NCBI RefSeq assembly: GCF_014695915.1
Contig: NZ_JACJPF010000084.1
Location: 1 to 64,000 of the forward strand
DNA from: Trichocoleus sp. FACHB-40
Lineage (GTDB): Bacteria > Cyanobacteriota > Cyanobacteriia > Cyanobacteriales > FACHB-T130
DNA: 64,000 nt
Reading direction: 5' to 3'
Both the position numbers and the translations under genes were made by a program. Positions 3,254-14,784 of this stretch are shown piece by piece (positions within the stretch are counted from its first letter, which is position 1; each line of letters starts with the position of its first letter). The notes under the pieces were generated by a model, which saw only the letters and a list, made by a program, of their open reading frames with translations, made no database searches and had not been told where the DNA came from.

Positions 3254-3514
3254 ATGCCATATATTACCAGTATTGAGCGGAGAGCAATGGCAAGGGGGGA
3301 ACTACAAGGGCGATTGGAAAGTGCGCGAGAGAATGTTATCGAAGTTTTAAAAACTCGTTTTGAAGTGGTTCCTCAATCTATGGTTGAGGTGATTAATGAG
3401 CTTAATGATTTGTCTGTGTTAAAGACGCTCCATAGACAAGCCATAACTATTGCGTCGCTGTCAGATTTTCAGGGATTTATTAGTAGTATTAGGTCTGAAC
3501 CTGAACAATCATAA
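3254..3514 (+). pseudogene. Third copy of the Rpn-nuclease 3' end
   Basis: An 86-residue frame starting MPYITSIERR, intact in its first part, with the same charged helical tail as the C-terminus of the nuclease at 1902-2876 and a diverged end (DFQGFISSIRSEPEQS). AGGAGGAG... precedes ATG at about 10 bases because the internal codons of the parent happen to form a ribosome binding site, so it may be translated. It contains no nuclease core. Confidence 0.6.
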
Positions 3515-4769: not shown

Positions 4770-5531
4770 TCAAGCGATAATCATTTTGGCAACATTTTCC
4801 ATCACCTTGCTTAACGGATGATCTGGAAAACGCAAGCAGAACAAATCGCTACTTGCCATTTGGATCATCTCTTCCGAAAGCGGCAAAATACCTGCTACCG
4901 GTGCGTTATATGTCTTCTCGACTTGTTGCTTCAAAGCATCAAAATCCAAAATAGGTAGGGCCTTATTCACCATAAGCAACATCTTAGGAACCTGCAACTT
5001 TCGCGCAACTTCCACTGTCACGGCAGTACCCTGAAAATCTTGGCGATCTGGACGCAAAATCAAAACCAAAATATCAGAGATAGTGATAGAAAGCAGAGTT
5101 TCTTCATTAAGCCCTGGATGGGTATCAATGAATAAGTAGTCTAAATCTAGAGCGTCGATTACTTCTTGAAACCCATCATTTAGCAGACCAAAATCGAATC
5201 CCTCGCGCAGCACTCTGGTAATATCTCCAGCTTTAATGCTGGAAGGAATCAGGTAAATGCTGCTGTTTTTATTACCCGTTTTTTTCAAAACCGAGGTGAC
5301 ATCATAAGCAGCTTCTTCAATTAAACAGCGCCCCCACAAATAGTCATTGAGAGAGTGTTTTATCTTATCCTCATCGAAACCGAAAAGCACATGAATTCCG
5401 GGGGATTGGATATCCGTATCAACAATGCCAACGCGATGCCCAAAGCGAGCAACTATCGCAGCCAGGTTAGCAGTCGAGTTCGATTTTCCGGTGCCACCCC
5501 GAAATGAGTGGATGGACACGATTTTTGACAT
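4770..5531 (-). CDS. MinD/ParA-type ATPase
   Basis: A 253-residue P-loop ATPase of the MinD/ParA superfamily. It has a deviant Walker A region FRGGTGKSNST (residues 10-20), a switch I DTDIQSPG and a switch II DTHPG. The signature lysine of classical MinD/ParA (KGGxGK) is arginine here (R11), a variation that changes the residue used for trans-interaction in the dimer. Family members form ATP-dependent dimers and position proteins, plasmids or complexes. The C-terminus (ENVAKMIIA) is short, without a clear MinD membrane helix. It is the last gene of a minus-strand cluster with a winged-helix protein and a CHASE2 protein. GAGGT precedes the start. Confidence 0.85.
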   Translation of the reverse strand: MSKIVSIHSFRGGTGKSNSTANLAAIVARFGHRVGIVDTDIQSPGIHVLFGFDEDKIKHSLNDYLWGRCLIEEAAYDVTSVLKKTGNKNSSIYLIPSSIKAGDITRVLREGFDFGLLNDGFQEVIDALDLDYLFIDTHPGLNEETLLSITISDILVLILRPDRQDFQGTAVTVEVARKLQVPKMLLMVNKALPILDFDALKQQVEKTYNAPVAGILPLSEEMIQMASSDLFCLRFPDHPLSKVMENVAKMIIA

Positions 5532-5987: not shown

Positions 5988-8306
5988 TCACTTAGATTCA
6001 TCCTCTGTCTTCTGTCGCTTGTTCGCCCTTTGCTGCAACTGCTGGAAATAGTCTTCTTCAGATGAGTTAACTTCTTGGCTTACCTGTGAATCCTCTTCGA
6101 CCTCAGCTACGCCTTCAGTTTGTCCGTTAGCGTCCAAATTCTTCAGTCGCACTCGTTGCTGCAACTGCTGGAAGTAGTCTTCTTCAGCGGTTTGGGCGTC
6201 TTGGCTTACCTGTGAATCCTCTTCGATCTCAGTTACGCCTTCAGTTTGTGCGTTAGCGTCCAAATTCTTCAGTTGCACTCGTTGCTGCAACTGCTGGAAG
6301 TAGTCTTCTTCAGGGGTTTGGGCGTCTTGGCTTATCTGTGTATCTTCTTCGATCTCGGTTGCCGCTTCACGTCCGTCTGCATCCCCATTTTTCAGATTCG
6401 CCTTTTGCTGCAACTGCTCAAAGTAGTCAATTTCTTCAGTTATTACAGGTACAGAGGCGGAAACTGCGGCTTCTGATATCTGTGTATTTGATTCAATTTC
6501 GACATCGCTGCGCCGATTTTTCCGATTTTTCGCCTTTTGCTGCAACTGCTGCAAGTAGTCGTCGGTTTCTTCAGTTATTACAGGTACAGAGGCGGAAACT
6601 GTCACTTCTGATGTCTGTGTATTTGATTCAATTTCGACATCCCTGTGCCGATTTTCCGCCTTTTGCTGCAACTGCTGCAAGTAGTCGTTGGTTTCATCAA
6701 TTATTACAACTTGGGGTGAAACTGTCGCTTCTGATGAGTGTGGATTTGATTCAATCTCGACATCGCTGTGCCGAGGACGCAAATTTTTTCCCTGTTGCTG
6801 CAACTGCTGCAAGTAGCCGTCGTTTTTTTCAGTTGTTTCAATGGCTTGGGATGCAGGCGTAGCTTTTGCCTTAGATGAGGTACCGCCTCGACTTCTGAGA
6901 TTTTTTCCCTTTTGCTGCAACTCCTGAAAATAGTCAGTTTCTGTAATTTCAGCTACCTGGCGCTCTTTCTTTTCTTCATCAATCTCAATATCGATTTTCA
7001 AGAAACCCTTGACACTTTTATAGATTGCCTTGGCGTAGCCTCTTTCTACGATCAAAACACCGCCAGCTGTCGCCACCAGTGCCAATGCTGGCGGTATTAG
7101 CGGTATCCACCCAGCTTGGAGAAATAAAACGTAGCAAGTTCCATACAAAACGACTATTGCTACGCCTCCAGCAATACCAAGCAGCCAAGGACGGCGAATG
7201 CGCCATGCTAGAATCCCTCCCGCCAGCGACCAACCCCAAATCCAGAAAAGTTCGCCCCACTCATTCCAGTACCAAAATAGGGGTCGTTTATCCAGCACTG
7301 CGCTGAGGATTTGACTGACAACTTGAGCGTGAATGGTCACTCCGGGCATTTTCTGGGTGCCTTCCTGACTAGCACTGTAAGGCGTGTTAAAGTCGTCATT
7401 TACGCTGGTTGCTGTGTAGCCAACCAGCACAACTTTATCTTTTACTAAAGCCGGATCGACTTTACCCTTGAGTACATCTGTGAGCGTTACTTTGTTGGCT
7501 GGCTCATTTGCAGAGCGATAATTAATTAGCATCTGCAAACCCTCCATATCGGCGTTCCGATATCCGCCAGCATTTTTGTCGGGGCTTTTGAATACGGTTG
7601 AGGCGATTTTCAGGTTTCCATCGGGTGTAGGTTCCGCTTCAATTCCCTCAGCTTGCAGGTAAATTAGTGCTAGGGACATATCCAAAGATGTCAGTTGCTC
7701 TTCGGGATCGCTGCATAGGTGGGCATTCTCTAGGGGAACTTTCGGGGCTGGGGGACTTGCAACTAAGAGACTGCGGCGCACCCATCCATCAGGCTCTTTG
7801 ACGAAATCAGCAAATCCAACTTGCTCTGGTGGGATGCTTGGTGGCGGCGGAAATCCTGCTTGTTTACCGTCACTCAGTTGGCAGATAGTTATAATGCGAT
7901 CGCTTCCCTTCAACACCTTCAATAAGTCTGCATTTCCCTCTTTGACGGGAACATCCCGAATAATATCTATACCGATGGCTCGCGGTTCATACTCGTCTAG
8001 TTTCTGCAAAACTCTAGCAATTGTCTCATCAGACAAAGGCCATCCCTTCTCCGCTTGGATGTCTCCCTCGGTGATTTCCACCAGCAACACGCGCTTATCT
8101 GGCCCTTCATCAGGACGCAGACGAATTAGCTGATCAAAAGCACCAAGCTCCTGTCCCTGGAGCATTCCCAGCGCTCTTGCTCCTACTACCAAGCCTGTAA
8201 TTACAATGCTGGTGAGAACTACCTGTCCGCCAAAGTTTAATGCTGTTGTGCCGACGTTGGTGTTTGATAACAGGGAGCGAATTTTTGAGTTGAGCCGAGA
8301 AATCAT
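5988..8306 (-). CDS. CHASE2-domain membrane protein with eight DYFQQLQQ tail repeats
   Basis: A 772-residue protein. Residues about 27-47 are a membrane anchor, about 55-330 an extracytoplasmic CHASE2 sensor (LLVEITEGDIQ, WPLSDETIARVL, AIGIDI, YRSANEP, VVLVGYTATSVNDDF), and about 352-420 three membrane segments. CHASE2 proteins normally carry a cyclase, kinase or phosphodiesterase after these helices. Here the cytoplasmic part (residues ~456-770) has no enzyme domain. It holds eight copies of a D-Y-(F/L)-x-Q-L-Q-Q module separated by acidic linkers. The repeats look like short linear docking motifs. The adjacent winged-helix and MinD-like genes are the natural candidate partners, by inference from the operon. 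Confidence 0.88.
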   Translation of the reverse strand: MISRLNSKIRSLLSNTNVGTTALNFGGQVVLTSIVITGLVVGARALGMLQGQELGAFDQLIRLRPDEGPDKRVLLVEITEGDIQAEKGWPLSDETIARVLQKLDEYEPRAIGIDIIRDVPVKEGNADLLKVLKGSDRIITICQLSDGKQAGFPPPPSIPPEQVGFADFVKEPDGWVRRSLLVASPPAPKVPLENAHLCSDPEEQLTSLDMSLALIYLQAEGIEAEPTPDGNLKIASTVFKSPDKNAGGYRNADMEGLQMLINYRSANEPANKVTLTDVLKGKVDPALVKDKVVLVGYTATSVNDDFNTPYSASQEGTQKMPGVTIHAQVVSQILSAVLDKRPLFWYWNEWGELFWIWGWSLAGGILAWRIRRPWLLGIAGGVAIVVLYGTCYVLFLQAGWIPLIPPALALVATAGGVLIVERGYAKAIYKSVKGFLKIDIEIDEEKKERQVAEITETDYFQELQQKGKNLRSRGGTSSKAKATPASQAIETTEKNDGYLQQLQQQGKNLRPRHSDVEIESNPHSSEATVSPQVVIIDETNDYLQQLQQKAENRHRDVEIESNTQTSEVTVSASVPVITEETDDYLQQLQQKAKNRKNRRSDVEIESNTQISEAAVSASVPVITEEIDYFEQLQQKANLKNGDADGREAATEIEEDTQISQDAQTPEEDYFQQLQQRVQLKNLDANAQTEGVTEIEEDSQVSQDAQTAEEDYFQQLQQRVRLKNLDANGQTEGVAEVEEDSQVSQEVNSSEEDYFQQLQQRANKRQKTEDESK

Positions 8307-8814: not shown

Positions 8815-9612
8815 ATGTTGAACAAGTCTTCTGTACATTTCACGACACTTTCCTTAGCCTTGTCTGTGGGACTAACGCTGTACGCCAGCATTCCAGCCAC
8901 AGCAGAATCGCCACAAACACCGATACGGCAAACAACCCCCAACCGTGTGCGCTCAGGTCGCCTGAGATTTAGATTGCCAAAAGTCGGCGCACCCCGTACT
9001 AGAGAACCGGGAGCATCCCGTGGTAGCTCAAACTGTAGCAATCAAGGAAAGTCTGTAATGGCATTATTGCCAGATACTAATGTGGGATTGACTGTAGCAG
9101 AGCGTCCGACCTTATTTGTTGCTATTCCTTCTAGTAGCGCCGAACAAGCCGAGTTTACGCTGCATGACGAGGAAAAGCAGCAGGAGGCACTATACAAAAC
9201 AAAAATTCCCATTCCTAGCACTGCTGGTATTGTTAGCATCAGCCTTCCCTCAGACGCTGATTCTCCACAGCTGGAAGTTGGTAAAAAATATCGTTGGTCG
9301 TTTTCAGTTATTTGTGACGCTGAGGATAGGGCAGCAGATATTTTTGTAGAAGGGTGGGTGCAACGAATGGAACCAAGTGCCACCTTAGTTAAGGATTTAG
9401 AGAAAGCAACAGAACGCGATCGCCCAGTTTTGTACGCTGAGGCTGGACTTTGGCTCGACACAATCGCATCTCTAGCTAATTTACGTAACGCTTCTCCTAA
9501 CGATTCCAGCTTAGTAACAGATTGGGAAGACTTATTAAAAGCCGTTAATCTTGGCACAGTTGCCAAGGAACCTTTAATTAAGTTAGAAACCAGCACAAGT
9601 TCCACGCCCTAG
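8815..9612 (+). CDS. DUF928 family exported protein
   Basis: A 265-residue protein with a signal peptide (residues 1-30, cleavage near ATA-ES) and the features of cyanobacterial DUF928: a GASRG motif followed by Cys (GASRGSSNCSNQG), LLPDTNVGLTVAERPTLFVAIP, and a conserved tail with WLDTIASLANLR and DWEDLLKAV. Its function is unknown. In cyanobacteria DUF928 genes are often near CHASE2 or CHAT/TPR genes, and here the neighbour is a CHASE2 gene in divergent orientation. The start is ATG (8815). Confidence 0.85.
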   Translation: MLNKSSVHFTTLSLALSVGLTLYASIPATAESPQTPIRQTTPNRVRSGRLRFRLPKVGAPRTREPGASRGSSNCSNQGKSVMALLPDTNVGLTVAERPTLFVAIPSSSAEQAEFTLHDEEKQQEALYKTKIPIPSTAGIVSISLPSDADSPQLEVGKKYRWSFSVICDAEDRAADIFVEGWVQRMEPSATLVKDLEKATERDRPVLYAEAGLWLDTIASLANLRNASPNDSSLVTDWEDLLKAVNLGTVAKEPLIKLETSTSSTP

Positions 9613-9802: not shown

Positions 9803-9985
9803 TCATTCCTGATGCTGAATCTTACTAATTTCCGTCACCCAACTCCGGCGGTCATTATGTTCCAAGTTGAGGATGTCTTCTAAAGACCAGTGGAAGTGAA
9901 AAGCAATTAAGGCTACCTCCTCGCGCAGCGCATCAGAGGGGTAGCCTAAGATTCCCCCGCTAGAGAAAGCTCCACCTGAAATTGA
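9803..9985 (-). CDS. DUF6760 small CIS protein in a frame without a usable start codon
   Basis: The open frame begins after a TAG at 9986-9988 and ends with TGA at 9803-9805. It encodes the hallmark DUF6760 sequence: GGILGYPSD, then EEVALIAFHFHW, then ILNLEH, then a W-V-T-E-I end. DUF6760 proteins of about 50-60 residues are regular members of CIS loci. Between the upstream stop and the conserved GILGYPSD core there is no ATG, GTG or TTG; only ATT (9980-9982) and ATC (9950-9952) occur. The frame is exactly -1 relative to the preceding gene (stop 9946), and the two overlap at a run of five Gs (9954-9958). A -1 ribosomal frameshift would give a fusion of the upstream Zn-ribbon protein to DUF6760. 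Initiation at ATT is the alternative. The family call is firm; the mode of expression is inference. Confidence 0.8.
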   Translation of the reverse strand, partial: SISGGAFSSGGILGYPSDALREEVALIAFHFHWSLEDILNLEHNDRRSWVTEISKIQHQE

Positions 9986-10326
9986 CTATTGCACGTAGGA
10001 CACTGAACCGGAATGTAAACATCACCTTGTTGGTTGATGCGATTGTAAAACTCCCGCAGGTACGCCAAATCAAGAGAAAAAAGATTCTCCAACAATTCAG
10101 GAGTTACCTTTGATAGTTCGCCTAAACGAGTAATAGTTCGCGAGAGCATCACCAAAACTGCATAAGCGGGATTATCCTGCACCCCCCGGTCTTTTTGGAC
10201 AAACATTTCATCTTTTGCAGTTGCTAGACGCATCACGCCTTGGCGATGAACGCCCCCGCTTGCATCCACCAATCCTCTAGGAAGGATAAATTCAAATTCA
10301 GTATAGAGTATGCGATCGCTGTCCAT
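9946..10326 (-). CDS. T4-baseplate/tail-assembly-type small protein with Zn ribbon (CIS)
   Basis: A 126-residue protein paralogous to the next gene upstream (10336-10695). Both have TEFEF-LP-G, then DG--HR-GVMRL, then R-L-(E)-VTPE. This pattern is typical of the small T4-type baseplate or phage tail assembly proteins found in CIS loci. This copy has a C-terminal extension with CPTC (residues ~113-116) that could form half of a zinc site. It probably helps baseplate or hub assembly. Its last codons overlap DUF6760 in the -1 frame at G GGG GAA, a possible slippery site. Confidence 0.75.
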   Translation of the reverse strand: MDSDRILYTEFEFILPRGLVDASGGVHRQGVMRLATAKDEMFVQKDRGVQDNPAYAVLVMLSRTITRLGELSKVTPELLENLFSLDLAYLREFYNRINQQGDVYIPVQCPTCNSQFQVELSLAGES

Positions 10327-10335
10327 CTCGTCGGG

Positions 10336-10695
10336 TTACTCAAAATCAGGAGTCAGTGCAGGATTCGGTAACGGGTTTGTCACCACTTTCGACTCAGCAT
10401 TTTCCTGCTCTAGTTCATTAATCTGACGATAAAACTTCTGGAGATAATTCAAATCACAAGCGAAAAAACCTTCAACAACTGAAGGCGTAACCTCCTCTAA
10501 GGCTCCCAATCGAACGATCACGCGAGCCAAAATAATTACTGTAGCGTAAGCAGGATTTGATTTAACGCGAGGGTCGCGCAAGGGGACAATTTCATCCATT
10601 GCTCTCGACAAACGCATTACACCTTTGCGGTGAATGTTGCCATCGCTATCGAGATACCCCTTTGGTAAAGTAAATTCAAACTCAGTTTGAATCAT
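10336..10695 (-). CDS. T4-baseplate/tail-assembly-type small protein (CIS)
   Basis: A 119-residue protein with TEFEFTLPKGYLDSDGNIHRKG, MRLSRAMDEI and R-LGALEEVTP, matching the T4 baseplate-protein-like family of CIS loci. It lacks the CPxC extension of its downstream paralogue. Its ATG overlaps the end of the tube-like gene by 14 bases, so translation is probably coupled. The next gene starts 9 bases after its stop. The exact assembly role is unknown. Confidence 0.75.
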   Translation of the reverse strand: MIQTEFEFTLPKGYLDSDGNIHRKGVMRLSRAMDEIVPLRDPRVKSNPAYATVIILARVIVRLGALEEVTPSVVEGFFACDLNYLQKFYRQINELEQENAESKVVTNPLPNPALTPDFE

Positions 10696-11188
10696 TCGTT
10701 ACTACATTAATCCGTTTTAACTCTTCAACAGTCACTTCTATCTCTTCAATCTCCATATCGCCCCCAACAGCATTAACATCTGCAATTTTATAGCTAGTAG
10801 GCCATGCTCGTTTAAACTCAAATCTAAACTGCTCTTGGGCTGCCTGATTATAGATTACTAAAGATCCATCGCGCTGTTGTTTACCCCAATTTCCATCCTG
10901 CACAGCCTGAATCCAGTTCCACAACGTCATCGAACAAGTCAGACCCCGGCGCAAGGTAATATTGCTGTAACTAACATTACCAGGAATTTTTGTCCGGACA
11001 ACTCGACCCTGAGATTCTCCATCTTTGCCCCACTTCTGAGGTGTCACCTCGGAGATTTCTATCACCTGTTGCGTAGACTTAAAGCCGCTACAATCCATAA
11101 AGTAGCCGTCTATCGCATCATTGCTTCCATCGAGTTTCAGTTCCAGGTAAAATCGGCAAGTTGTGAGAATTTCAGGAAAGTCTGTCAC
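10682..11188 (-). CDS. gp19-like tail tube family protein (CIS)
   Basis: A 168-residue member of the phage T4 gp19-like tube family (PF06841 type). It has FYLELKLDG, then DCSGFKSTQQVIE, then the signature NITLRRGLT---TLWNWI, and an EEIEVTVEEL end. In CIS loci such proteins form the inner tube or the ring joining tube to baseplate. It is the third tube-fold gene in the left arm and is most like the right-arm paralogue at 23746, which suggests these two are specialised tube-initiator or adaptor rings (inference). Confidence 0.85.
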   Translation of the reverse strand: MTDFPEILTTCRFYLELKLDGSNDAIDGYFMDCSGFKSTQQVIEISEVTPQKWGKDGESQGRVVRTKIPGNVSYSNITLRRGLTCSMTLWNWIQAVQDGNWGKQQRDGSLVIYNQAAQEQFRFEFKRAWPTSYKIADVNAVGGDMEIEEIEVTVEELKRINVVTNDSN

Positions 11189-11303
11189 AGTTGATACCGC
11201 CTTACAACCAATTCACTTTCTATTATATAAATCACTGACTGGTGAAATGGAGCGCGATCGCATCTCACCTCACCAGAGCAGTTTTGCATTGAGTATATTC
11301 CTT

Positions 11304-11804
11304 CTACGCCGATACAGTAAACTTCATCCGCTCGTAGTTAAGCTTAAGCGTCCAAGTTTCCAGTTCGCTACTCCCTGCGTCCCGCTTAGGAACATCAAAA
11401 CTATTGGGAAGCACCCCTACAAAACTGTACGTTAACCCCACCTTCCCCTCTGAACCTGAGTAATAGACATTAATTGTCATTTCTTTCCGTAAAGTTCGCG
11501 CTTTTGCAGCTTCCCCAAGGTTAGCTTTCGAGGCGCAATCCTTGTACCACTCCCACAGCTTATCGTCATTTCCTCCCTGATGCGCCCCTGGCACCAAAAC
11601 AAGCGTTATCTCGCCATACTTTGGTTGACTCGGAACACTGAGAACCAGCGATTTTCCCTTTGGGCCAGAACCGATGGCATTATCAGCACCCTTTGGGGAC
11701 ATATCTACTGATATCCCACTTACTTCTTTGATAATGATGTCTTTGATATCACCAATTGCTACATCGTAGTTATCACTAGATAGTAACTCAACGGCATCAG
11801 CCAT
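11304..11804 (-). CDS. CIS inner tube protein
   Basis: A 166-residue tube-fold protein beginning MADAVELLSSDNYDVAIG and ending with LETWTLKLNYERMKF. It has the SVPSQPKYGEITLVL strand pair typical of Hcp/gp19-like tubes. The ATG at 11804 is chosen rather than the one at 11822 because GGAAGG lies 6 bases before it. It follows the other tube gene with about a 100-base gap. Confidence 0.8.
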   Translation of the reverse strand: MADAVELLSSDNYDVAIGDIKDIIIKEVSGISVDMSPKGADNAIGSGPKGKSLVLSVPSQPKYGEITLVLVPGAHQGGNDDKLWEWYKDCASKANLGEAAKARTLRKEMTINVYYSGSEGKVGLTYSFVGVLPNSFDVPKRDAGSSELETWTLKLNYERMKFTVSA

Positions 11805-11908
11805 AAATAACCTTCCAATCAATTACAAAGTACAAAGAAATGATTGCGATCGCTTCTTAAAGCGAACAAAATTAAGAGTATTGTCTCAAACACCTAGACT
11901 TAGATAGA

Positions 11909-12379
11909 TCAAGCTGGATCGAATTGGTCAACCTGTAGCGTAAAGGTTTCTTCAAGCAACCCGCCGTCTGCACTGAGTTTCCCGATTTGATATTTACAAA
12001 TCCAAACTCCGCTCATCTTCCACGAATCTACCATTTCTCCGGCTGAGTTATAGGATTTAATTACGCCTTCTGCCATCCTGGCACTCGTAGGAAAGCCGCC
12101 ACCATCCTCTGCTTTTGGCATACACTGTAACAGCCACTTTCGCATCAGCGAGCTAGTGCTTTTTGCATCTCCACTAGCTAGGGTTACTAAAGTGATTTGA
12201 ACCGCTGCTTCCCTTTTCTTAGTAAGAGTCTGTCGTACAGATCCCTTGGCACCAGACATTATGGCATCACCATGTTGAACGTCAGTCTTATAAGCTGGCA
12301 GGTCAACACTTTTAAACTGTAGGCCGTCACCTACTCCCTTGATTTCTAATTCAAAATTCTCAACTGTAATAATAGCCAT
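11909..12379 (-). CDS. CIS inner tube protein
   Basis: A 156-residue tube-fold protein (start MAIITVENFELEIKGVGDG; end LEETFTLQVDQFDPA). Strands KREAAVQITLVTLASGD and WKMSGVWICKYQIGKLSADGG fit the Hcp/gp19 beta-barrel. The ATG at 12379 has AGGAGG 8 bases upstream; the ATG at 12409 does not. It is directly downstream of the sheath gene with a strong hairpin between, as expected for a major structural subunit. Confidence 0.82.
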   Translation of the reverse strand: MAIITVENFELEIKGVGDGLQFKSVDLPAYKTDVQHGDAIMSGAKGSVRQTLTKKREAAVQITLVTLASGDAKSTSSLMRKWLLQCMPKAEDGGGFPTSARMAEGVIKSYNSAGEMVDSWKMSGVWICKYQIGKLSADGGLLEETFTLQVDQFDPA

Positions 12380-12414
12380 TGTGCAAGACCTCCTTACAAA
12401 TTTTTTCAATATTT

Positions 12415-12450
12415 AGTTTAGATATCAGCCCTAGCGCTGATATCTAAACT
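12415..12450 (-). promoter_or_regulatory. Perfect 15-bp hairpin between sheath and tube genes
   Basis: AGTTTAGATATCAGC (12415-12429) pairs with GCTGATATCTAAACT (12436-12450) around a 6-base loop. It lies between the sheath stop and the tube ribosome binding site. No T-run follows in the direction of transcription, so mRNA stabilisation or processing that sets sheath:tube ratios is more likely than full termination. Confidence 0.7.
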
Positions 12451-12462
12451 AACGACTCTAAC

Positions 12463-14181
12463 CTACTGGTTAGGAGACCACTGACTGATGCGGAAGATCA
12501 CAAATTCCGCTGGTCGGACTGGACAGACACCAATTTCGACATACAGACGACCCAGCATTATTGTCTCGTGGGTGTTGATACTGGCATCGCACTTGACATA
12601 GAAAGATTCACCAGGCGAACCACCGAACAACGCCCCTGCACGCCACAGCCGTTCCAGGAAATTGCTAACTGTCCGGGTAACTCGCGCCCACAAATCTTGA
12701 TCGTTAGGCTCGAAAACAACCCACTGGGTACCGATTTCAATCGAGCGCTCGATGTAGCTAATCAGACGGCGGACGCTGATATAGCGCCACTGCACATTAG
12801 CGGGTTCTACCAGAGTGCGTGCGCCCCAAACTTGGAAACCTCGGTTGTAGTTGGCGAAGTTGCGGATACAGTTGATCCCCACAGGGTTCAACAGTTCCTG
12901 TTCGCGGAAGTTAGTTTCGTAGGCTAAACCCAGGACACCGCGAGGAACTTCGTTGGCGGGTGCTTTGAAAACGCCACGAGTCTCATCGGTGCGGCACCAA
13001 ATCCCCATCATGTGACCGCAGGGGGGAACCAAAATCGGTCGTCCGGCATTGCGTGGGTTCGCCACTTTAATCCAGGGATAGTACAACGCGCCGAACATAG
13101 AACGACGATTAAAGTTATTTAACCACTGAGCTACGTGCTGAGGCTTTTGTTGCTCAGGGGGTACAGGCTCGCCGCCTCCCTTGCAAGGTGGCGGGTCGAG
13201 AACTACCATGCGGTAGTTGGGGCTGGGTGCGTTGTTTTCGCACATACTAACCATCATTTCCATGATGCCGTGAACCTGATCCAAATCCAGCAGACCGCGT
13301 TGGTACGCCAGCATTAAATCTGGACAAGCAATCATGGAAACTTCGTCAATTTCAAAAATCCCTTGTACACCCGTGCGGTCATCACGCGCCCCATTCACAT
13401 CCCGTGGAAACCGCTCGCGGCTAGAAATGACGGGTGGAGGGCTGACTTCATAGGTGCCGTTGACAGGCCGCCGAGACAGGGGTTGTCCGCTGGTGGACAT
13501 ATCGGTTACGGACAAAAATTGAGATGCCTGCTGGTCGCCGATACCTTCATTGATTGCAGTGACGACATAGGTACCGACTTGCGCCTCGACATCCGGGTTC
13601 ATTGTCAGGTGGGTATACTCTTCGAGTTTCTCGCCACCGCGACTAATAATGACTTTAAAATATTCCCCCGTGTTGAGTGGGGGTTCTGCCTCTGGGTCTT
13701 CAGGGGCTTTCGGTTCATCGGGGAGGATGGAAACATTGACTCGTCCACCGGATAAGGCAAGAGCTGAGCTGTCATCCTCTTCGCCTTCGGATGGCTTAAT
13801 AGCAAACATCAAAGAGGGACGATTTCCAGAGGTTCTAAGCTTGGTGGCTGTTTCCTCCGGTGCGGGTGGTTCTGAACCGGGGAGTTTGGTACCAATGCTA
13901 GTCACCCAACAGCGTCCACCCCCGTTCATAAACCAGCCATTGACGGCAAAGGGGAGGTAGGCGTTGAAATCTGTGTAACCATCGGAGCCTTGTTTGCCAA
14001 AATACTCTAGGAATTGGCTCCAATTGGTGATCATCATGGGTTTGAACAGTTCGGCATCACCGCGTACATCCTCGGTAAAGCCAACAAACCCAGCAACACT
14101 CATGCTTACGCCTTCAATCGGGCGACTACCACGGTCTACTTCTTCGACGTAGACACCAGGAGCAAAATAATCCATCGGCAT
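12463..14181 (-). CDS. CIS contractile sheath protein
   Basis: A 572-residue tail sheath protein. The N-terminus (DYFAPGVYVEEVDRGSRPIEGVSMSVAGFVG) and C-terminus (RPAEFVIFRISQW) are the diagnostic ends of phage-tail-like sheaths. The C-terminal segment RRLISYIERSIEIGTQWVVFEPND is also characteristic. Sheath subunits polymerise around the tube and contract to drive it into a target or membrane. The central domain (about residues 100-270) is the variable protruding part. ATG 14181 has AGGAAG 8 bases upstream. It is the second gene of the leftward arm. Confidence 0.96.
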   Translation of the reverse strand: MPMDYFAPGVYVEEVDRGSRPIEGVSMSVAGFVGFTEDVRGDAELFKPMMITNWSQFLEYFGKQGSDGYTDFNAYLPFAVNGWFMNGGGRCWVTSIGTKLPGSEPPAPEETATKLRTSGNRPSLMFAIKPSEGEEDDSSALALSGGRVNVSILPDEPKAPEDPEAEPPLNTGEYFKVIISRGGEKLEEYTHLTMNPDVEAQVGTYVVTAINEGIGDQQASQFLSVTDMSTSGQPLSRRPVNGTYEVSPPPVISSRERFPRDVNGARDDRTGVQGIFEIDEVSMIACPDLMLAYQRGLLDLDQVHGIMEMMVSMCENNAPSPNYRMVVLDPPPCKGGGEPVPPEQQKPQHVAQWLNNFNRRSMFGALYYPWIKVANPRNAGRPILVPPCGHMMGIWCRTDETRGVFKAPANEVPRGVLGLAYETNFREQELLNPVGINCIRNFANYNRGFQVWGARTLVEPANVQWRYISVRRLISYIERSIEIGTQWVVFEPNDQDLWARVTRTVSNFLERLWRAGALFGGSPGESFYVKCDASINTHETIMLGRLYVEIGVCPVRPAEFVIFRISQWSPNQ

Positions 14182-14226
14182 GGCGTAGTCTTCCTTTTTT
14201 GGGTGGTGGATAATGGGCGCGAGGAG

Positions 14227-14784
14227 TTATGAGTTATGAGTTTTGAATTCAAAACTCATAATTTTTTCTCGCTTCTTTACTACTTCTTTAGGTGTGTTCG
14301 GCCCTTGTAAGGTGAAGGGAACCGTCACTGTCACATATAAGGCTGGACGTAATGGAACACCCAGCGCACTCCATAAAGCTGCTGCTTCAATAAAGCCAAT
14401 GGCAGAAACGATCATTGACAAGTTGCCATGACCGCGTAGTGCTGGAACCAGCAACTCTTCTGCTATCGGGCGATGAGGCAATAGCATTGTTAATGCTTCT
14501 GAGAGTAGACGTTGTTCTCCCAAGGCGGTACAGTCCCAGGCACTCACCAGGAACGAGATATCAAACCATAAGGGGGAACGCTTAAGAGCGCCTGTATGCG
14601 TTGTTTCCGGGTTAAGCCTGCGGCCTACCTGACCGTTTTCCCCGATGTTGTAGCAGTACAGGTTCAGCGCTGGCCTTATATCCTGCCGCATACCAGGGTG
14701 GTTGAAATCTATTTGCTCTGTATTGAGCAGAGAAGTCCCGCCAGCCAGGATTTCTGCCAAAGTCTGGGCAGTAGCAGGGATCAT
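14227..14784 (-). CDS. DUF4255 (Pvc16-type) CIS cap protein
   Basis: A 185-residue DUF4255 protein with RPALNLYCYNIGENGQVGRR, then LWFDISFLVSAWD, LGEQRLLSEAL and the end strand PALYVTVTVPF. In PVC and antifeeding prophage, the homologue caps the tube-sheath end. It starts the leftward arm. A second, larger DUF4255 gene is at 17054, so the locus has two potential caps. The stop codon is about 45 bases before the sheath start. Confidence 0.88.
   Translation of the reverse strand: MIPATAQTLAEILAGGTSLLNTEQIDFNHPGMRQDIRPALNLYCYNIGENGQVGRRLNPETTHTGALKRSPLWFDISFLVSAWDCTALGEQRLLSEALTMLLPHRPIAEELLVPALRGHGNLSMIVSAIGFIEAAALWSALGVPLRPALYVTVTVPFTLQGPNTPKEVVKKREKIMSFEFKTHNS

Follow-up and report, generated by a model that had tools for sequence, protein, structure and literature searches.

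A repeated tail module in a cyanobacterial CHASE2 receptor and its probable effector, a MinD-like ATPase whose signature lysine is replaced by arginine

Introduction

Short peptides of MinE, ParB and FlhF bind MinD, ParA and FlhG and alter the cycle of these ATPases. A ParA-type ATPase also goes together with sensory proteins in the PpfA-TlpT and ParC-ParP systems, by which chemoreceptors are positioned, and positioning systems commonly have disordered handles. In FleN-FleQ a MinD-like ATPase controls a regulator. As for the signature lysine of such ATPases, beta-McdA of type 1 is without it and its partner McdB has a glutamine-rich region, according to a review (PMC8262871).

The locus that we compare with these systems lies in a stretch of 64,000 nucleotides of Trichocoleus sp. 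FACHB-40 (positions 1 to 64,000 of contig NZ_JACJPF010000084.1), which is called the window below. The assembly holding it (GCF_014695915.1) has 6.38 Mb in 126 contigs, and the window itself also carries contractile injection sheath/tube-type genes. A CHASE2 receptor gene is followed on the same strand by a winged-helix ORF and then by an ATPase gene (Table 1). This is the operon that an earlier note, made from the letters alone, had described, and its reading of the ATPase as MinD-like with R for the signature lysine is also borne out.

Table 1. Features of the receptor locus, in positions of the window
Feature	Position	Strand	Remarks
CHASE2 receptor gene, eight-motif cytoplasmic tail	5988..8306	(-)	772 aa ORF; motifs start at aa 458, 497, 541, 583, 627, 668, 710, 752
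CHASE2 domain, aa 37-365	7212..8198	(-)	PF05226, 241.4 bits vs gathering score 26.3
Three predicted membrane helices after CHASE2, aa 349-421	7044..7262	(-)	AlphaFold2
Module 1, full length, aa 434-473, right after last membrane helix	6888..7007	(-)	module profile E 1.1e-21
Motif copy 2, GYLQQLQQ, aa 497-504	6795..6818	(-)	
Motif copy 3, DYLQQLQQ, aa 541-548	6663..6686	(-)	
Motif copy 4, DYLQQLQQ, aa 583-590	6537..6560	(-)	
Motif copy 5, DYFEQLQQ, aa 627-634	6405..6428	(-)	
Motif copy 6, DYFQQLQQ, aa 668-675	6282..6305	(-)	
Motif copy 7, DYFQQLQQ, aa 710-717	6156..6179	(-)	
Motif copy 8, DYFQQLQQ, aa 752-759	6030..6053	(-)	
Winged-helix protein, 109 aa	5600..5929	(-)	only sub-cut-off Pfam matches to winged-helix families
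MinD-fold ATPase, Walker A SIHSFRGGTGKS, R11 for signature lysine, proposed effector	4770..5531	(-)	
Divergent DUF928 gene	8815..9612	(+)	near 21/23 module-type CHASE2 loci

Results

The receptor belongs among the CHASE2 receptors, as its Pfam CHASE2 domain scores above the gathering score. After this domain the AlphaFold2 model has helices at aa 349-369, 373-397 and 404-421, which from the known CHASE2 architecture would lie in the membrane, and the tail that follows them has 336 residues (14% Q, 14% E, net charge -35). No catalytic output domain was found in the receptor, there being no second Pfam match at E 0.1 and no NCBIfam match. In the model the residues 476-772 are without a confident globular domain; seven of the eight motifs each lie in a helix of their own (motif copy 2 has none), and the linkers between the tail helices have pLDDT below 50 over long stretches. 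The blank Pfam and NCBIfam results for the tail, and a model that gives lone helices in low-pLDDT linkers, speak against a concealed enzyme. The earlier note had called this a CHASE2 receptor without an enzyme domain and had named a cyclase or kinase fold, to be looked for by structure prediction, as what would speak against it; PF05226 is the only domain match and the predicted structure agrees with that description.

Along the tail the octapeptide D/G-Y-F/L-x-x-L-Q-Q occurs eight times. On shuffling the 336 residues 20,000 times we obtained a mean of 0.0001 copies and a maximum of 1, and as the shuffled tails never had more than one copy the eight motifs are not due to chance. The pairwise identity of the octapeptides is 84% as against 18-19% in the flanks (18 residues before and 12 after), and the ratio of nonsynonymous to synonymous codon differences is 36:18 within the motif and 410:28 and 274:19 outside it. 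Both contrasts mark the motif itself as the conserved part. The DNA of the tail is duplicated with a period of about 126 nt, with a 47-nt repeat family in 8 copies and a 126-nt family in three copies (90% and 64% to the reference). Using a loose pattern for the motif in 31 CHASE2-type proteins, we counted eight in the window receptor and 0-3 in the 30 relatives; therefore, the eightfold repeat is a local amplification. The partly duplicated DNA and the eight D-Y-(F/L)-x-Q-L-Q-Q motifs of the earlier note are thus found again, except that one copy starts with G and that the motif is only part of a longer unit (see below), and its proposed search for such tails in other CHASE2 proteins gives the motif but not the eightfold repeat.

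The octapeptide is the C-terminal half of a module of about 38 residues, with the approximate consensus L-x-I-E-I-D-E-x-K-K-x-R-Q-V-A-E-I-T-E-S-D-Y-F-Q-x-L-Q-Q-K-A-K-x-L-R. Copy 1 of the window receptor is the whole module, and copies 2-8 have mostly its second half. The module positions I9, D10, V18, I21, F27 and L30 are conserved to 91-99%. Of the 80 distinct copies that have a residue at position 38, 98% show R or K. Judged by its sequence the module forms a separate family. We found it in 79 ORFs, of which 76 proteins were retained after leaving out a fragment (L044), a cut-off ORF (L081) and a duplicate (L115, of L032). The domains in these 76 proteins, which overlap, are CHASE2 (34), HAMP (33), Tll0287-like (17), dCache_1 (15), Nif11 (5), PAS (3), protein kinase (2) and cNMP-binding (2), and receiver and HisKA proteins are also among the carriers. 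The module is therefore spread across many sensor types, mostly with a single copy per protein. It may be noted that for some carriers the Pfam matches are confined to HisKA/REC or cNMP-binding domains, with no sensor on the extracytoplasmic side.

The genome of the window has a second module receptor, of the Cache type and with two copies, and directly after it a second ATPase which is 72% identical to that of the window. Both of the full-module receptors found in this genome thus precede an ATPase of the R-for-lysine type. Two contigs overlap by 113 bases at the Cache-receptor locus. CHASE2 occurs at 10 or more places in this genome. On removing the window receptor, the Cache receptor and one weak match from eleven matches, eight other CHASE2 paralogues remained, and these were checked for their output: two have a kinase, three CHAT, one a cyclase, one GGDEF, and in one none was detected.

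The window ATPase matches the Pfam families AAA_31, ParA and CbiA, all above cut-off. It lies below cut-off for the MinD models TIGR01968 (46.2 of 212.9 bits) and TIGR01969 (84.3 of 201.75 bits) and also for the KGGVGR-motif variant AAA ATPase NF047398 (79.1 bits, cut-off 90). Named genomes were scanned with the two ATPases of this genome and the best 80 of the 287 relatives were taken; all 80 have HS[FY]RGGTGKS, with arginine at the signature-lysine position. Similarly, none of the 57 aligned ATPases departs from R11, K16, D38, D40 or D136, so that a deviant Walker A with the signature lysine is absent from both the aligned set and the best 80 of 287. As the Walker residues and the three aspartates are invariant, the ATPase looks catalytically intact. 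For the fold we used a model of the L109 homologue, an artificial construct of module and ATPase with the stop read through. Its fold is of the MinD type (Foldseek 2.9e-16; VIA-align 1hyq, Z 28.0, rmsd 2.0, 231 residues), MinD being the closest among matches that include FleN (7ejw, Z 24.4), McdA (Z 23.4 and 23.3), Soj/ParA and FlhG; a fifth or more of the rows in this comparison span only the model residues 77-337, with the module fold barely covered. By its Pfam matches and the P-loop fold of the homologue model the window ATPase is a member of the MinD/ParA superfamily.

We then searched 244 genomes of the phylum for the two, with E limits of 1e-3 for the module and 1e-35 for the ATPase. 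The two sets of positive genomes are identical, with 34 members each. One of the 53 module rows was dropped in the pairing, being the second copy within one ORF of G167. All 34 belong to the class of the window, and since by kinship labels only about 109-117 of the 244 genomes do so, many of those with neither are distant. CHASE2 as a control is present in 216 of the 244, which means that CHASE2 by itself does not track the ATPase. Within the class, 152 of 388 genomes had both, 5 the module only, 10 the ATPase only and 221 neither (phi 0.92, Fisher p 6e-88, kinship ignored), with up to six ATPase candidates scored per genome and with arginine read from the 57 aligned and the best 80 of 287 rather than from each distant ATPase of this set. 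The two samples overlap, as 31 of the 34 positives are also in the larger one. The 5 module-only genomes are drafts of 120-720 contigs, and on recheck they gave no close ATPase, the one match (in G435) being 27% identical at 5.9e-11. For the 10 ATPase-only genomes, of which four are single-contig assemblies, no module was seen at E 1e-3: one had a marginal match (E 0.007) and nine were blank below E 0.1. In each of three genera (g5, g10 and g16), species with module and ATPase stand beside species that lack both. Also, in 12 of the 34 positive genomes there is no pair within 12 kb, the nearest pair being more than 400 kb apart on one contig in 7 and on different contigs in 5. Therefore, the matching profiles are not just a result of operon inheritance.

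At the loci themselves, a module gene lies within 4.5 kb of the ATPase in 44 of the 80 cases (best 80 of 287), which is a lower bound because several contigs end at the locus; the other 36 have no module gene nearby, the contig ending there in some. Among the ATPase matches listed, all three above 700 aa are fusions, from three genomes, in which HisKA, receiver, module, linker and ATPase form one chain of 731-872 aa. An unfused homologue of 410 aa is 40-41% identical to two of the three up to and through the module; it is flanked by a hybrid histidine kinase on one side and by a module protein with a cNMP-binding domain on the other, and in its genome the ATPase is encoded separately, at a distance of 1.2 Mb. 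Operon, phyletic profile and gene fusion, taken together, support the ATPase as the likely partner of the module.

The winged-helix gene has a narrower distribution. It is near 16 of 23 loci of the CHASE2 type, 2 of the 21 module loci of other types and 5 of 36 module-less loci, and so belongs mainly to the CHASE2 branch; the last two counts led us to reject it as a universal partner. Accordingly, the co-occurrence with a winged-helix/MinD-like pair that the earlier note had put forward holds for the ATPase (34 of 34, and 152 genomes with both, in the two samples) but for the winged-helix protein mainly at CHASE2 loci. Its profile has weak matches to winged-helix structures (best eS25 at 2.9e-5, then HlyU, DDRGK1 and BlaI-type repressors) and one at E 0.009 to AspA, part of an archaeal ParA partition system. 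Near some ATPases (L044, L051 and L053) its chain also includes a second MinD-like domain, and at another locus the same winged-helix type is the N-terminus of a 952-aa protein. Three other candidate links were rejected. DUF928 is not specific to the module, as it is also beside 3 of the 8 CHASE2 paralogues (flanks of about 1.5 kb), all of them CHAT-CHASE2. Contractile injection sheath/tube genes were within 11 kb in only 3 of the 80 ATPase loci, where the flanks were often shorter. For anti-phage defence, PADLOC gave only partial P-loop and winged-helix matches for the five proteins submitted, none of full length.

Discussion

Our conclusion from the comparative sequence evidence is that the module serves sensory output and would work through the R-for-lysine ATPase; the window receptor has it in eight copies. 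The tail probably hands signals to the MinD-like ATPase, and it is likely that it does so by docking, as a repeated output module, onto the ATPase of the same operon. The CHASE2 domain, or elsewhere a Cache, heme-Cache, REC or cNMP domain, would sense a cue, and the change would be passed to the short helix-turn-helix module, which follows on a HAMP or another input domain or on the last membrane helix. The module would then bind the ATPase and alter its nucleotide cycle. With eight docking sites a receptor could bind with higher avidity or assemble several ATPase dimers, and in the CHASE2 branch the downstream effect may perhaps run via the winged-helix protein. Of this scheme, we infer the direct binding, the control of hydrolysis, the multivalency and the downstream effect. 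A weak hint of docking comes from the models: in the module-ATPase model pLDDT is 91-96 at residues 21-50 (about module positions 9-38) and 80 at residues 11-20, whereas the corresponding part of the model of the receptor alone has 68-84, the alignments and constructs being different between the two. The earlier note had seen the tail as a scaffold for multivalent recruitment, possibly of the ATPase. The lack of an enzyme and the partnership indicated by operon, profile and fusion agree with this, but the motif is not specific to CHASE2 proteins and its eightfold number is local.

The ATPase may instead be a positioner of the ParA/MinD type, the module being a cargo handle by which the sensors are clustered or placed, with no signal going through the ATPase. 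Its fold, closest to MinD with Soj/ParA and McdA lower in the list of matches, would suit such a role, and so would the disordered tail, of a kind usual for handles in these systems. However, the module is also on HisKA/REC or cNMP proteins for which Pfam shows no extracytoplasmic sensor, and a separate cargo makes less sense where the module is fused to the ATPase, as in three genomes. These two observations favour a relay, and we regard positioning as unlikely, though worth keeping in mind.

A switch like FleN-FleQ, in which the receptor sequesters or releases the ATPase and the latter acts on a DNA-bound winged-helix protein, is likewise unlikely in our estimate. In its favour, the operon here has the winged-helix gene in the middle, this gene is near most of the CHASE2-type loci, there are the fusions of winged-helix and second MinD-like domain, and FleN is among the structural matches of the ATPase model. 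Yet the scarcity of the winged-helix gene at non-CHASE2 module loci (2 of 21) and at module-less loci (5 of 36) means that it is not the general output, and the same winged-helix type also heads the 952-aa protein of another locus. More improbable still is that the Q-rich tail is a self-associating or condensate scaffold which makes no contact with the ATPase, their genes merely sharing a pathway: the Q and E content, the charge of -35 and the long stretches of pLDDT below 50 would be in keeping with it, but the module is conserved, short, usually in one copy, found on proteins of unrelated input and fused to the ATPase. A degenerate cyclase or kinase in the tail, which might be expected as 7 of the 8 CHASE2 paralogues of the genome carry an effector domain, is hardly credible given the blank Pfam and NCBIfam searches, the lone helices and a module that forms its own family.

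Returning to the signal-output module, a wider proposal can be made, tentatively and at slightly less than even chances. Here one family of R-for-lysine MinD-like ATPases would be the shared effector of many sensors, of CHASE2, Cache, heme-Cache, REC, cNMP, PAS and kinase type, that have the same docking module of about 38 residues, the copy number (up to eight in the window receptor) setting the gain, as a cyanobacterial signal class that has not been described. We found no paper on the pairing of module and ATPase in the open PMC library, to which the search was confined (subscription journals lie outside it). If the module does act through the ATPase, many cyanobacterial sensors that now seem orphaned for want of an enzyme would have a predicted output, and an ATPase of the MinD type, a kind that mostly serves in positioning, would turn out to be an effector of sensors. 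Together with relatives that have at most 3 copies, the eightfold tail would make a natural series for multivalency.

Among the known systems, MinD-MinE, ParA-ParB and FlhG-FlhF have the same composition, that is, a MinD-fold Walker A ATPase with a short, predicted helical element that has a conserved basic residue; the parallel in sequence to the MinE/ParB/FlhF-type peptides would be the R/K at module position 38 (98%). They differ in that the element is here on dozens of sensors (76 proteins) and that the ATPase has R for the signature lysine and scores far below the MinD cut-offs. PpfA-TlpT and ParC-ParP also pair a ParA-type ATPase with sensory proteins, whereas here the module is part of the sensors themselves, and REC and cNMP proteins have it too; no chemotaxis domain was found in the module proteins among 25 of the 30 Pfam families listed. 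With McdA-McdB the locus shares the missing signature lysine and a Q-rich partner, but the fold match is weaker (Z 23.4 and 23.3 against 28.0 for MinD) and the partners are sensors. FleN-FleQ is similar by the structural match (7ejw, Z 24.4) and differs in that the winged-helix partner here is small and mainly restricted to the CHASE2 branch. As for the sensors, the Tll0287-like (sCache_heme) domain is in 17 of the 76 module proteins, and in the matched passages of a recent preprint on this domain (PMC12889525) there is no mention of MinD, an operon or an output domain. The CHASE2 receptor enzymes share the sensor domain and have a kinase, cyclase or GGDEF domain where the window receptor has the repeated module, or else a CHAT domain at the opposite side.

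Genomic context of the module and the ATPase

Gene order at one fetched locus (L145) suggests that a phosphorelay feeds into the module, the element of about 38 residues found on many sensors, because two module proteins, one of HisKA-REC and one of cNMP-binding type, are encoded there in one operon-like run with a hybrid kinase. The long CHASE2 tails next to the arginine-type ATPase at three other loci possibly represent, in their repeats, diverged arrays of putative docking sites. The second MinD-like protein found at four loci is more divergent, and in 3 of the 4 it is fused to a winged helix. It may be noted that a phage-tail-like protein seems, by eye, to be encoded upstream of the 952-aa winged-helix protein.

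Features at the fetched loci and in the window
Feature	Position	Strand	Remarks
952-aa protein, own genome (contig C92)	L031:1899-4757	-	N-terminus of the winged-helix type of the window's protein
Second MinD-like protein	L044:8147-9289, L051:8787-9848, L053:7328-8584, L048:8771-9562		Just upstream of the arginine-type ATPase
Operon-like run	L145:7646-12534	-	Cache-HAMP hybrid histidine kinase, HisKA-REC-module protein, cNMP-binding module protein
Long CHASE2 tails adjoining the ATPase	L090:7526-9946, L094:3107-5551, L104:7205-9832		Repeats degenerate or of other kind
Contractile-injection-system-like genes	window 9946-14784	-	Tail sheath, gp19-like tube, Pvc16-type protein, small proteins

A cyanobacterial-type module receptor and ATPase are present in a metagenome bin labelled Acetothermia (L084), probably through mis-binning. 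Sheath or tube genes lie within 11 kb of the ATPase at L039, L043 and L055; in the window, the contractile-injection-system-like genes lie just past the DUF928 gene. Elsewhere in the window, the ORF at 3254-3514 repeats the C-terminal part of the ORF at 1902-2876 (shared MPYITSIERRAMARGELQGRLE...) and is apparently a truncated tandem copy of it.

The second receptor-ATPase pair of the own genome (L029 and L030, contigs C37/C38) is surrounded by what appear, by eye, to be NHLP/Nif11-type leader-peptide and HlyD-like export genes. By the same inspection, the N-terminus of this second receptor looks similar to Nif11, and among the 76 Pfam-scanned module proteins a Nif11 domain is present in 5.
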